From Candidatus Aenigmatarchaeota archaeon (lineage in GTDB: Archaea > Aenigmatarchaeota > Aenigmatarchaeia > JACPZZ01): DNA of 64,000 bases. The position numbers and the translations under genes are program-made. The notes under the pieces are model-generated. The model did no database searches, had not been told where the DNA came from, and saw nothing but the letters and a program-made list of their open reading frames with translations. This document shows, piece by piece, positions 38,654-51,091 of this stretch; position 1 is the stretch's first letter; every line of letters begins with the position of its first letter. Location: positions 121,522-185,521 of the forward strand of contig JACQNZ010000004.1 of the NCBI GenBank assembly GCA_016202815.1, in the 5' to 3' direction.

Positions 38654-39502
38654 TTGGTGTACAAAAAATTAGACACTTCGAAGGTGGAATTCAGCAAACG
38701 CGATAAATTTTTCGGAATTAAAATTCCTAGATATTTGACACCGGAACTGGCTTATGAGACGGGTGTTCATATCGGAGACGGACATATGGGCATAAATATC
38801 AGACCGGACGGTTCTCATTTATTTGCGATAATTTTTTCCGGTGATTGGACAGAAGAAAGATTATTTCATTACGAAGTAATTGCACCTTTAATTCACAGGC
38901 TCTATAATAAGCGATGTCACATAACTGAAAGTACAAAGAACACAGTAAGGCTTAGCTATAAAAGTCAGGCCATTGCCACATTCAAAAATAGAGTTCTGGG
39001 ACTTCCAGCCGGAAACAAAAAAGGCAGAATTAGGATACCCAATGTTATTATGAAATCATCTTTGAATGTCAAAATAGCTTGCCTAGCCGGTGTCGTCGAT
39101 ACCGATTTTTCGTTAACTTTCAAGAGGAATGGGACTTATCCCAGGTTATCCGCGTCTTTTCCGATAGAGTGTAAAGGGTTCGTTGATGACATAGAATCTA
39201 TTTTACAAGAAGCTGGAATAACAGTCACTATTTGTCTGTCCAATAGAATTGAAAAAAGACATGCCCCGCCAACATATTACAAAGAATATTCCATCAATAT
39301 TAACGGAATCGGCAATTTGATCAAATGGGTCAATTTGGCCGGCTTTAAAAATCCTAAGCATTATAGTAAACTTTTAGTGTGGCGTAAATTCGGCAAGTGT
39401 TTAGGCCATACTACAACCGAAGAAAGGTTGGAATGCCTCAGTAGCTCAATGGCAGAGCGTTACACTGTTCCGGTTAAAATCCGTGCAGGACGAACTTGGT
39501 AA
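38654..39502 (+). CDS. LAGLIDADG homing endonuclease, 3' end overlapping tRNA-Thr
   Basis: Two motifs: LAYETGVHIGDGHMG and IACLAGVVDTDFSLTF; stop TAA at 39500-39502. Confidence 0.85.
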   Translation: MVYKKLDTSKVEFSKRDKFFGIKIPRYLTPELAYETGVHIGDGHMGINIRPDGSHLFAIIFSGDWTEERLFHYEVIAPLIHRLYNKRCHITESTKNTVRLSYKSQAIATFKNRVLGLPAGNKKGRIRIPNVIMKSSLNVKIACLAGVVDTDFSLTFKRNGTYPRLSASFPIECKGFVDDIESILQEAGITVTICLSNRIEKRHAPPTYYKEYSININGIGNLIKWVNLAGFKNPKHYSKLLVWRKFGKCLGHTTTEERLECLSSSMAERYTVPVKIRAGRTW

Positions 39503-39537
39503 GGTAAAGGTTGTGAGTTCAATTCTCGCCTGAGGCT
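39435..39537 (+). tRNA. tRNA-Thr(GGT) interrupted by ~31 nt (39464-39494) at position 30/31
   Basis: Acceptor GCCTCAG/CTGAGGC, D GCTC/GAGC, spliced anticodon stem TTAC+C/GGTAA, T-arm GTGAG-TTCAATT-CTCGC, U73. Alternative reading Asn(GTT) fits worse. Confidence 0.7.
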
Positions 39538-46145: not shown

Positions 46146-46637
46146 ATGCTGGCTTACATTCTGAATGTGGAGGGGTCTGGTTACAGGCAGTCCAACGTTT
46201 TCCACCTTGATCCTGACACCAAGCTGCTAGTCCCTGTAGAACTGGACAGGATCGAAATGGTTGGATTCCCGCCTTACCCGTTCCGGTCGCACGGCGACCT
46301 GGCGCAGGTATGGCCGTATGATAGGATGCCCACCCGCGTTATTGTCGATGGCCAGCCTGCTGACAATCTAACAACAAAGCTGAAGTCCATGCCGGATGGC
46401 GCCAGCGGAATGGTGATCGGCCGGTACGACCCTCAAAAAGATTCTGCAATTTCCCGCTCGCGGGAAAGCGTTATGGATGCTGTCCGGAAAGGACGGTTGA
46501 TGGAAAAAATACGGGGGCTGGAAGGCGGGCAAACTGTCATGGCAGCTTATTTCAGGTTTTCTCCCCGGATGCTGGCAGAATCCGCGCAGTTGGAAATGGC
46601 GCTACTTGAACAGGAACCCGGTCTCCTTCGACCATAG
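46146..46637 (+). CDS. Hypothetical protein
   Basis: Intact ORF with a short-leader promoter-like AT tract. Confidence 0.5.
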   Translation: MLAYILNVEGSGYRQSNVFHLDPDTKLLVPVELDRIEMVGFPPYPFRSHGDLAQVWPYDRMPTRVIVDGQPADNLTTKLKSMPDGASGMVIGRYDPQKDSAISRSRESVMDAVRKGRLMEKIRGLEGGQTVMAAYFRFSPRMLAESAQLEMALLEQEPGLLRP

Positions 46638-47234
46638 AAGAAGGTCGAGCGCATTTAACGGGATCCCGGCATCTTTCGAGAATTTTTTCATTTTGGCCTC
46701 TATTTCCAGATATTTTTTGTCTGTCAATTGCTCGGGTATCTCGTCGATGACGTTGAACCATTTCAAATTTCGCATTATGTGCACGTCCAGTATCGCGAAT
46801 TCTTTACCCAAACCTATGTTTCTTAGAAAATGAGAAGCTTCTTTTCGCCCGAGACCGTTGACGTTCTTGATAAGCCACTCCCTTGCGCCCGCCGGCGACA
46901 GGAATTTCTTTAAGAAATCGTTAAAATTTACCTTAGTATCCATGAATCGCCCCCTCGCCTGTACTACGTATTTTGCCTTTTCATCCGGAAAGCTTATGTC
47001 GTCCATGTACTTCCTGATTTCTTCGGCGGTCCCTTTAAACAACAAACCGTTGCTTGCGAGCTGTTTTACGATGCGGTCGCACTTGACAGCCGACGAGCGG
47101 GGCGTACAGAGGCAAAAGCAAAGCTCGAGGAAGATTTTTTTATTGTCCTTTCCGTTTTGTTCAAAGTCTTCCAGGCGCGCCTGTATATCGGCTTTTTTGG
47201 ATCCGTAAAAATTTTTAAGCTCCTCTAGATCCAT
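46602..47234 (-). CDS. ogg: 8-oxoguanine DNA glycosylase/AP lyase (archaeal Ogg type)
   Basis: HhH NGLGRKEASHFLRNIG; FAILDVHIMRNL; start at 47234 avoids the tRNA overlap. Confidence 0.88.
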   Translation of the reverse strand: MDLEELKNFYGSKKADIQARLEDFEQNGKDNKKIFLELCFCLCTPRSSAVKCDRIVKQLASNGLLFKGTAEEIRKYMDDISFPDEKAKYVVQARGRFMDTKVNFNDFLKKFLSPAGAREWLIKNVNGLGRKEASHFLRNIGLGKEFAILDVHIMRNLKWFNVIDEIPEQLTDKKYLEIEAKMKKFSKDAGIPLNALDLLLWSKETGFLFK

Positions 47235-47294
47235 GATATAATCAGGTAAAAAACAAGTTATATAAGCTGATCTGGTAAATAGATTTTTAGTCAT

Positions 47295-47572
47295 CCCCCG
47301 GTAGCTCAATCTGGTAGAGTACTCGGCTGTAGTTTGGTACCGCGCAAGTTGTGCCAAGATCTGGCCGTATTCGGAAACCGAGTTGTTGGGCGTTCAAATA
47401 AGCCTTTTCTTTTGACAAAGGCTTGTGGTACAAGCCATGCATGGAAAACAGAAGTTTTCCATGAAAAGAAAAGCCTTAAGGTAAAAGAAAACCTAATGGA
47501 AGAAAAATAAATGGCCTTAAGGCAAAGGAAAACTTAGGATGGGAGAAGGCTTGGAAACTCGCCCCCGGGGGA
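47295..47572 (+). tRNA. tRNA-Tyr(GTA) with a 44-nt canonical intron (47333-47376) and ~160-nt T-loop insertion (47400-47559)
   Basis: Acceptor CCCCCGG/CCGGGGG, D GCTC/GAGT, anticodon stem CTCGG/CCGAG, T stem GGGCG/CGCCC split by the insertion, A73; BHB helix TTGG/CCGA at intron 1. Confidence 0.87.
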
Positions 47573-50068: not shown

Positions 50069-51091
50069 ATGAAACCTGGAAAATCCGTGAAAAATCCTGC
50101 CTTGTTGCTTGCGGCGCTAATAACGCTAAGCTTGTACGCGTTTTTTTCCGCCTTGACAGAAGCCCATTCCGGGGACCATTCCATGAAACAGGACCATGCC
50201 GGCGTTGTGGGCGAATACACATTTGACGATTTCGACCCGGTTTCATATTTAAAAAACTGGAATTTCAACGACCTGCCGGAAGAAAAAAGAAAGAAATTCT
50301 ATAAAGAAGAGATTTTAGCCGACGGCACAACGCTGCGGGAATACTGGATATATGCTGTTGACAAAAAAATCGAAGTTGCCCCGGGCGTTTTCTTTGATGC
50401 GTGGACGTATAACGGCAGAGTGCCCGGTCCCACAATACGGGTCACGGAAAACGACACGGTGCGTGTCCATTTCATTAACCATGGCTCCCAAGCGCATACG
50501 ATGCATTTCCACGGTTATCATGAAGCGTCGATGGACGGTTCCATGCCTGAGCAATTCGTAGAGCCTGGCGAAAGTTTCATTTACGAGTTCAGGGCAGAGC
50601 CTGCGGGCTTGCACCTGTATCATTGCCATTCGACACCTTTGAAAGACCACATTTCCAGAGGGCTTTACGGCATGTTCATCATAGATCCCAAAGAAGGACG
50701 CCAGCAAGCCAGCGAATTAATCATGATGATGAACGCGTTCGACACAAACTTTGACGGTGACAATGAAGTCTACGCCGCAAACACAAAGGCTTTCTATTAC
50801 ATGGATAACCCGGTAAAAGTGAAAGCCGGAGAGCTTGTCCGGATATACACCGGGAACATGGTTGAATCCGATCCTGTCAATTCCATACACATACACGGAA
50901 ATTTCTTCAACGAATACCGTACAGGGACGTTGAACACGCCAAACGCTTTTACAGATATTATCGAACTCGGCCAGGGAGAACGCTCTATCCTTGAGCTGAA
51001 GTTCAGGTATCCTGGTAAATATATGTTTCACGCCCACCAGACAGAGTTTTCCGAATTGGGCTGGGCTGGCCTTTTCGAGGTCGAACAATGA
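50069..51091 (+). CDS. Two-domain multicopper oxidase
   Basis: HTMHFHGYHE, LYHCHSTPLKDHISRGLYGMF, SIHIHGNFF, FHAHQTEF. Confidence 0.9.
   Translation: MKPGKSVKNPALLLAALITLSLYAFFSALTEAHSGDHSMKQDHAGVVGEYTFDDFDPVSYLKNWNFNDLPEEKRKKFYKEEILADGTTLREYWIYAVDKKIEVAPGVFFDAWTYNGRVPGPTIRVTENDTVRVHFINHGSQAHTMHFHGYHEASMDGSMPEQFVEPGESFIYEFRAEPAGLHLYHCHSTPLKDHISRGLYGMFIIDPKEGRQQASELIMMMNAFDTNFDGDNEVYAANTKAFYYMDNPVKVKAGELVRIYTGNMVESDPVNSIHIHGNFFNEYRTGTLNTPNAFTDIIELGQGERSILELKFRYPGKYMFHAHQTEFSELGWAGLFEVEQ

Follow-up and report, generated by a model that had tools for sequence, protein, structure and literature searches.

The window analysed here, a stretch of 64,000 nucleotides from the genome of a Candidatus Aenigmatarchaeota archaeon (946,720 bases, 91% complete), carries on its forward strand a tRNA-Tyr(GTA) gene (positions 47295-47571) that folds perfectly only without two inserts, one of 44 nt at position 37/38 and one of 160 nt in the T-loop. 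The 5' exon (47295-47332) holds the 5' strand of the acceptor, the D arm, the 5' strand of the anticodon stem, and positions 32-37 including the anticodon GTA. It is followed by intron 1 (47333-47376), a middle exon (47377-47398) with A38, the 3' strand of the anticodon stem, the variable loop, the T stem strand GGGCG, and T-loop TTCAAA (positions 54-59), then by intron 2 (47399-47558) and a 3' exon (47559-47571) with position 60, the T stem strand CGCCC, and the acceptor strand CCGGGGG; A47572 is the discriminator base. With both inserts excised, as expected of archaeal BHB introns, a complete tRNA is formed (acceptor 7/7, D 4/4, anticodon 5/5, T 5/5). ARAGORN, proposed as a check by the initial annotation, missed the intact locus and recognised the 73-nt spliced product with CCA added as tRNA-Tyr(gta); the unspliced locus did not match Rfam either, and similar genes in related genomes may be missed too. 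A TATA-like promoter element (ttatataagc, 47258-47267, + strand), whose promoter role is inferred from its sequence, lies about 30 nt upstream, and the same motif is found at the same distance in two relatives (G001 and G002). The divergent neighbour (46602-47234, - strand) is an 8-oxoguanine DNA glycosylase (PF22175), which adjoins tRNA-Tyr also in G001 and G003. Elsewhere in the window, a predicted multicopper-oxidase-like protein (50069-51091, + strand; His-rich motifs recognised by eye) is unexpected in a reduced genome.

The initial annotation had stated that the stems close only after the T-loop insert is removed, which is borne out, and had placed that insert at 47400-47559, which has to be moved one base in the 5' direction. 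T47399 and T47559 are interchangeable bases, and the BHB geometry sets intron 2 at 47399-47558, between tRNA positions 59 and 60. Its ends pair over 10 positions, as had been described, by AAGCCTTTTC (47400-47409) with GAGAAGGCTT (47543-47552), one pair being G-U. The predicted fold of the 160-nt insert has an energy of -52.8 kcal/mol against a shuffle mean of -30.6 (z -6.2), which none of 200 shuffles equalled. At the junction, the outer helix would be the T stem GGGCG/CGCCC, the central helix would join UUCA to GGAA near the 3' end of the intron by three pairs and an A.G mismatch, the bulges would be AA^U and AC^U, and the inner helix AAGCC/GGCUU; the 3' end of the intron (47543-47558) accordingly contains the inner-helix strand GAGAAGGCTT, the central-helix strand GGAA, and the bulge AC^T47559. 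Intron 1 lies at the expected canonical site (CTGTAG^...AA^A), with the limits first given for it. The TTGG/CCGA helix claimed there could not be recovered; with CUG(U)/(U)CGG as central helix and a discontinuous inner helix, the motif is a relaxed BHB. In the minimum free energy fold of the whole precursor, a competing structure is preferred in which the anticodon stem pairs with the intron.

Three genomes of the same genus (G001, G002, and G003) have a tRNA-Tyr with both introns at identical sites, the first of 45, 49, and 179 nt and the second of 109, 66, and 56 nt, respectively, and in a fourth genus genome (83% complete) no tRNA-Tyr was found. The anticodon stem shows compensatory changes between the window gene and the three relatives (CTCGG/CCGAG, TTCGG/CCGAA, CCCGG/CCGGG, and TCCGG/CCGGA). 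It could be supposed that the gene is a pseudogene, or that a defective tRNA keeps the insert, in view of an intron length outside the published range and the mismatch in the central helix. A second, intact tRNA-Tyr elsewhere had indeed been named as one result that would refute a functional gene here; however, neither a covariance model nor similarity searches revealed another tRNA-Tyr in this 91%-complete assembly. The exons are kept in the three relatives with compensatory changes in the anticodon stem, which argues against pseudogene status, and the identical intron site and the conserved promoter-like box speak against a defective tRNA as well, which leaves very little room for this explanation. 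As a separate observation, a string of four hairpins (GAAAATC..GATTTTC, CACAGAAAAC..GTTTTCTGTG, CGGAAAG..CTTTCCG, and CGAAACC..GGTTTTCG) is similar at two loci, being inside intron 1 of the G003 gene (L045, 179 nt) and intergenic just downstream of the G001 gene (L044).

Splicing of BHB introns in archaea requires EndA and a 3'-phosphate ligase (RtcB), and both are encoded in the genome. The one EndA gene codes for 215 amino acids with N- and C-terminal domains and matches M. jannaschii EndA (1a79) over its full length; its Y, H, and K residues are presumably the catalytic triad. The enzyme (L035, 1474-2121) is of the alpha type with a charged N-terminal extension of about 40 residues, and carries six residues more than its M. 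jannaschii counterpart in the stretch that separates the putative catalytic Tyr from His (KRGPKEAH region). The pre-tRNA would thus be cut by EndA and joined by RtcB at two sites, 37/38 and 59/60. What counts against splicing is that the BHB motif of tRNA-Tyr is relaxed and that no EndA other than an alpha-type one was found; the enzymes for which cleavage of relaxed motifs is known have an extra loop, CSL or ASL (PMC12397907), and no such loop could be assigned in the EndA of this genome. Nevertheless, the intron of tRNA-Tyr is real and very probably spliced, its excision being inferred in the absence of RNA data.

When the insert was compared with its own genome by BLAST, short matching stretches were found elsewhere, and these are copies of one element, a relationship that lay beyond the view of the initial annotation and is the larger finding. 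A covariance model built from 12 copies gave 6-31 matches per genome (E<=1) in the genus, and in the class Aenigmatarchaeia matches were found in 63 of 156 genomes at E<=0.01 and in 39 of 156 at 1e-5; weaker matches in the genus and the class include chance ones, and the phylum-level search covered the same 156 genomes. Copies are present as tRNA introns at 37/38 (iMet, Pro, Ala, and others), at 59/60, and in D arms, so that similar introns stand in different tRNA species (iMet, Pro, Ala, and Tyr) and positions, as is expected of transposed introns. Further copies lie directly downstream of a tRNA-Ala (L105), in the 23S rRNA of one genome (G119, L108; LSU rRNA is recognised by Rfam upstream in the same orientation, and the two element sites were assigned to LSU by eye only), and inside protein operons. 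Two scans of viral contigs gave no match to the element, and no published description matching it was found in the literature searched on DPANN/Aenigmarchaeota tRNA introns or in Rfam. Dispersal of the element is an observation, and its spread by copying an inference.

Several side observations concern other tRNAs and the surroundings of the element. Many other tRNAs of the source genome (G000; L018, L020-L026, L029, and L031) apparently have introns, several at non-canonical positions, and some of the automatically assigned names (Pyl, Cys aca) are probably mistaken. A tRNA-Asn(GTT) gene, 103 nt long and interrupted by an intron close to its anticodon, lies at 39435-39537 (+ strand) of the window and was missed by the default ARAGORN scan. 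The D-arm insert of tRNA-iMet (TAATTTGAAATGCGATTTCAAGTTCC..) is present in G000, G003, and G004 (L079, L085, and L100) and absent from G001 (L094), which is, as far as sequences can tell, intron gain or loss inside a genus. In one family (G060-G063 and G119; L109, L156, L157, L158, and L108), a further motif, approximately GTGGCTCACTGRCGTTCGC, recurs downstream of the element.

The core of the element consists of three strands. S1 opens with YRR-N-CC and continues as a pyrimidine tract. The corresponding purine tract forms S2, which finishes with the complement of S1's four initial bases. S3, likewise a purine tract, shows parallel complementarity to S1 and mirrors the tract of S2. In intron 2 of the window gene, S1 (TAAG-CC-TTTTCTTTT-G) occupies 47399-47414, S2 (GAAAAGAAAAG-C-CTTA), its antiparallel complement, 47463-47478, and S3 (AGG-T-AAAAGAAAA), its parallel complement, 47479-47491. 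Between S1 and S2, additional hairpins are predicted (47415-47462; AGGCTTGTGGTACAAGCC and CATGGAAAACAGAAGTTTTCCATG) that are missing from the shorter relatives, and a second, degenerate S2/S3-like unit (GGCCTTAAGGCAAAGGAAAAC) follows at 47513-47533, where CCTTAAGGCAAAGGAAA is an exact match to the unit pattern. In the copies inspected, such extra hairpins are located at the S1/S2 loop or at the S2/S3 turn.

The ends of S1 and S2 change together (TAAG/CTTA, TGAG/CTCA, CAAG/CTTG, TAGC/GCTA, TGAC/GTCA, and TAAC/GTTA), and S2 contains the sequence complementary to the initial tetramer of S1 in 48 of 70 distinct copies, as against a mean of 15.7 and a maximum of 27 after permutation. S3 matches S1 in parallel at 8.13 of 9 positions (permuted mean 6.62, maximum 7.14), a value reached in none of 10,000 permutations. 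Since the copies share descent, such permutation counts overstate their independence. Ordinary antiparallel pairing of S1 with S3 was considered and would suit the mirror-symmetric tracts; it fails for the asymmetric ones, in which the parallel arrangement is the better in 43 of 52 copies and the worse in one, as illustrated by CTTTTCTTTCTTT with GAAAAGAAAGAA (L118) and TCTTCTTTT with AGAAGAAAA (L094). In the orthologous tRNA-Tyr introns, all three strands change together (TTTCTTTTT/AAAGAAAAA in G001 and TTTTCTTTT/AAAAGAAAA in G003). A Y-R-R triple helix demands that a third strand, also of purines, run antiparallel to the purine strand and match each of its bases; this is fulfilled at the level of sequence only, and the strand order is that expected of such a helix, the structure being inferred. 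To our knowledge, purine-motif triplexes of pure RNA are not well established, and a search of the literature on purine-motif RNA triplexes returned nothing relevant. The core most likely works as a folded RNA in which S1 would pair with S2 and S3 would turn back to run beside S2, as a possible third strand. The covariation of the three strands is directly observed and the geometry of the third strand inferred; covariation between parallel strands points to a structure outside ordinary covariation models.

Where the element interrupts a tRNA, its ends may form a substrate of EndA. The BHB motif (an outer helix, a central helix of about 4 bp, and two 3-nt bulges) is relaxed at tRNA-Tyr (3 bp and A.G) and perfect at several related T-loop introns. 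In 31 of 36 loci where a T-loop runs into an element-like start, a T stem could be closed, a few of these automatic closures probably being wrong. Among the class tRNAs with a 59/60 intron and a plausible closure, most central helices are perfect, and they covary, exon UUCA being mostly partnered by UGAA, UGAG, or UGGA and exon UUCG by CGAA, CGGA, or CGGG. For the 47 copies in tRNA, rRNA, or other places that entered the permutation test, the splice-motif score of the tRNA and rRNA copies was 10.57, compared with 9.73 with exons permuted (9.89 in the largest of 60 permutations). The T-loop/element junction pattern had 54 matches in 31 of 156 genomes and the reversed pattern 11, therefore T-loop introns at 59/60 are common in the class. 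EndA/RtcB splicing explains the tRNA copies well, splicing itself being inferred without RNA data, and the ability of the ends to form an EndA substrate would be the reason for which the element is tolerated in tRNA and rRNA genes. In the splice motif, the opening bases of S1 have a second partner, the 3' end of the intron, which gives two mutually exclusive states; a folding switch is a possible inference.

The copies in protein operons present a different picture. Within the genus they are in sense orientation, and in about 20 of 28 of them, a count for which some element starts were adjusted by eye, the first three bases of the element are the stop codon of the upstream gene (TAA, TGA, or TAG); in most of the remaining copies the stop lies 3-7 nt upstream of the element. 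Out-of-frame reading into the element was never seen among well-defined genes. The same gene/element junctions recur across species, and the element follows an L44e-like gene in two families (L133 and L156; gene names assigned by eye). No splice motif above chance was detected at the stop-codon copies (9.43 versus 9.53 permuted), therefore splicing fails to cover the whole family. Outside tRNA and rRNA genes, stop codons between operon genes are the main place where the element is kept, in sense orientation. A message-processing or stability element and a preferred landing site were both considered, and neither could be demonstrated.

Since the stop-codon copies have the same core and the same 5' boundary as the tRNA introns, they might be introns of mRNA whose splicing fuses or extends adjacent proteins; this is improbable, because their splice-motif score does not exceed that obtained after permuting the exons. 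Self-removal without EndA, by a catalytic intron of group I or another type, is slightly harder still to accept. The core is compact and conserved, copies occur in 23S rRNA as well, and group I introns are present in archaeal rRNA, one of them in an Aenigmarchaeota genome (PMC6125680). However, the tRNA-Tyr region has no Rfam match at E<=1, group I covariance models do not match it and the 23S locus (L108) yields LSU rRNA only, the shortest copy is 56 nt, the tRNA copies carry a covarying splice motif of EndA type, and the stop-codon copies seem to lie away from exon junctions. A box C/D RNA nested in the intron was also sought; neither TGATGA nor CTGA was read in 47399-47558, and the box C (RUGAUGA) and box D (CUGA) motifs are thus lacking.

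The most substantial competitor, unlikely as we consider it, is a small MITE-like DNA transposon for which tRNAs and stop codons are merely places where insertions survive. The many dispersed copies, the palindrome CCTTAAGG, and the resemblance of S1 and S2 to terminal inverted repeats agree with it, and a few copies are antisense or between genes (L113 and L122), therefore mobility is not excluded. On the other hand, the inverted parts covary between copies, which transposon ends do not need, the stop-codon copies are sense and in frame with the stop at the first base or 3-7 nt before the element, identical junctions are kept in different species, and viral contigs are without a match. That the family is no more than chance, AT-rich hairpins or terminator-like tracts caught by a low-complexity model, is hardly credible: A and T tracts are present and some weak covariance-model matches are surely accidental, but the reversed-pattern controls gave 5-fold fewer matches, 93 of 156 class genomes have no match at E<=0.01, and three strands change in a coordinated manner.

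Taken together, it is highly likely that the tRNA-Tyr gene in the window is functional, that EndA and RtcB splice its precursor twice, and that its T-loop intron is a copy of a dispersed structured element kept elsewhere mainly at stop codons. A broader scheme, in which an RNA element of some 50 nt, whether mobile or domesticated, has a triple helix of three strands as its core and a dual use throughout the class, as an EndA-excised intron of tRNA and rRNA and as an unspliced stop-codon structure in operons, is tentative and at present rather less probable than its negation. If it is true, the stop-codon structure could control termination, processing, or stability of messages.

With respect to known systems, position 59/60 is, according to PMC4090602, an established ectopic site of archaeal tRNA introns cut by EndA, and the tRNA-Tyr intron resembles these in position, in BHB geometry, and in co-occurring with a 37/38 intron. 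It differs from them in its length (160 nt, published archaeal tRNA introns being 11-129 nt), in a relaxed BHB in a genome for which only an alpha-type EndA was found, and in an interior that belongs to a dispersed structured family. By itself, it adds a long new example to a known class, as the initial annotation had held, and that interpretation of the locus is supported; the element family matters more. Transposed introns of the Thermoproteales type (2010 work cited in PMC4090602 and PMC4033280) are likewise similar across tRNAs and positions, whereas the present element is in another lineage (class Aenigmatarchaeia), extends to stop codons and 23S rRNA, and has a conserved three-strand core not mentioned for those introns in the portions of the two sources at hand. 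The group I introns of archaeal rRNA (PMC6125680) are structured rRNA introns too, reported in an Aenigmarchaeota genome; unlike them, the element lacks an Rfam match, is far smaller, and has EndA-type junctions. The BHB intron of the CBF5 mRNA (PMC2738675) shares with it an intron type common to tRNA and mRNA, yet the mRNA copies of the element have no BHB and stand at stop codons, outside the gene interior. PMC4090602 counts the way in which archaeal tRNA introns spread among the unknowns; here, the same core is found in tRNA introns, 23S rRNA, and stop codons, and close genomes differ in their copies, which makes intron gain directly testable.
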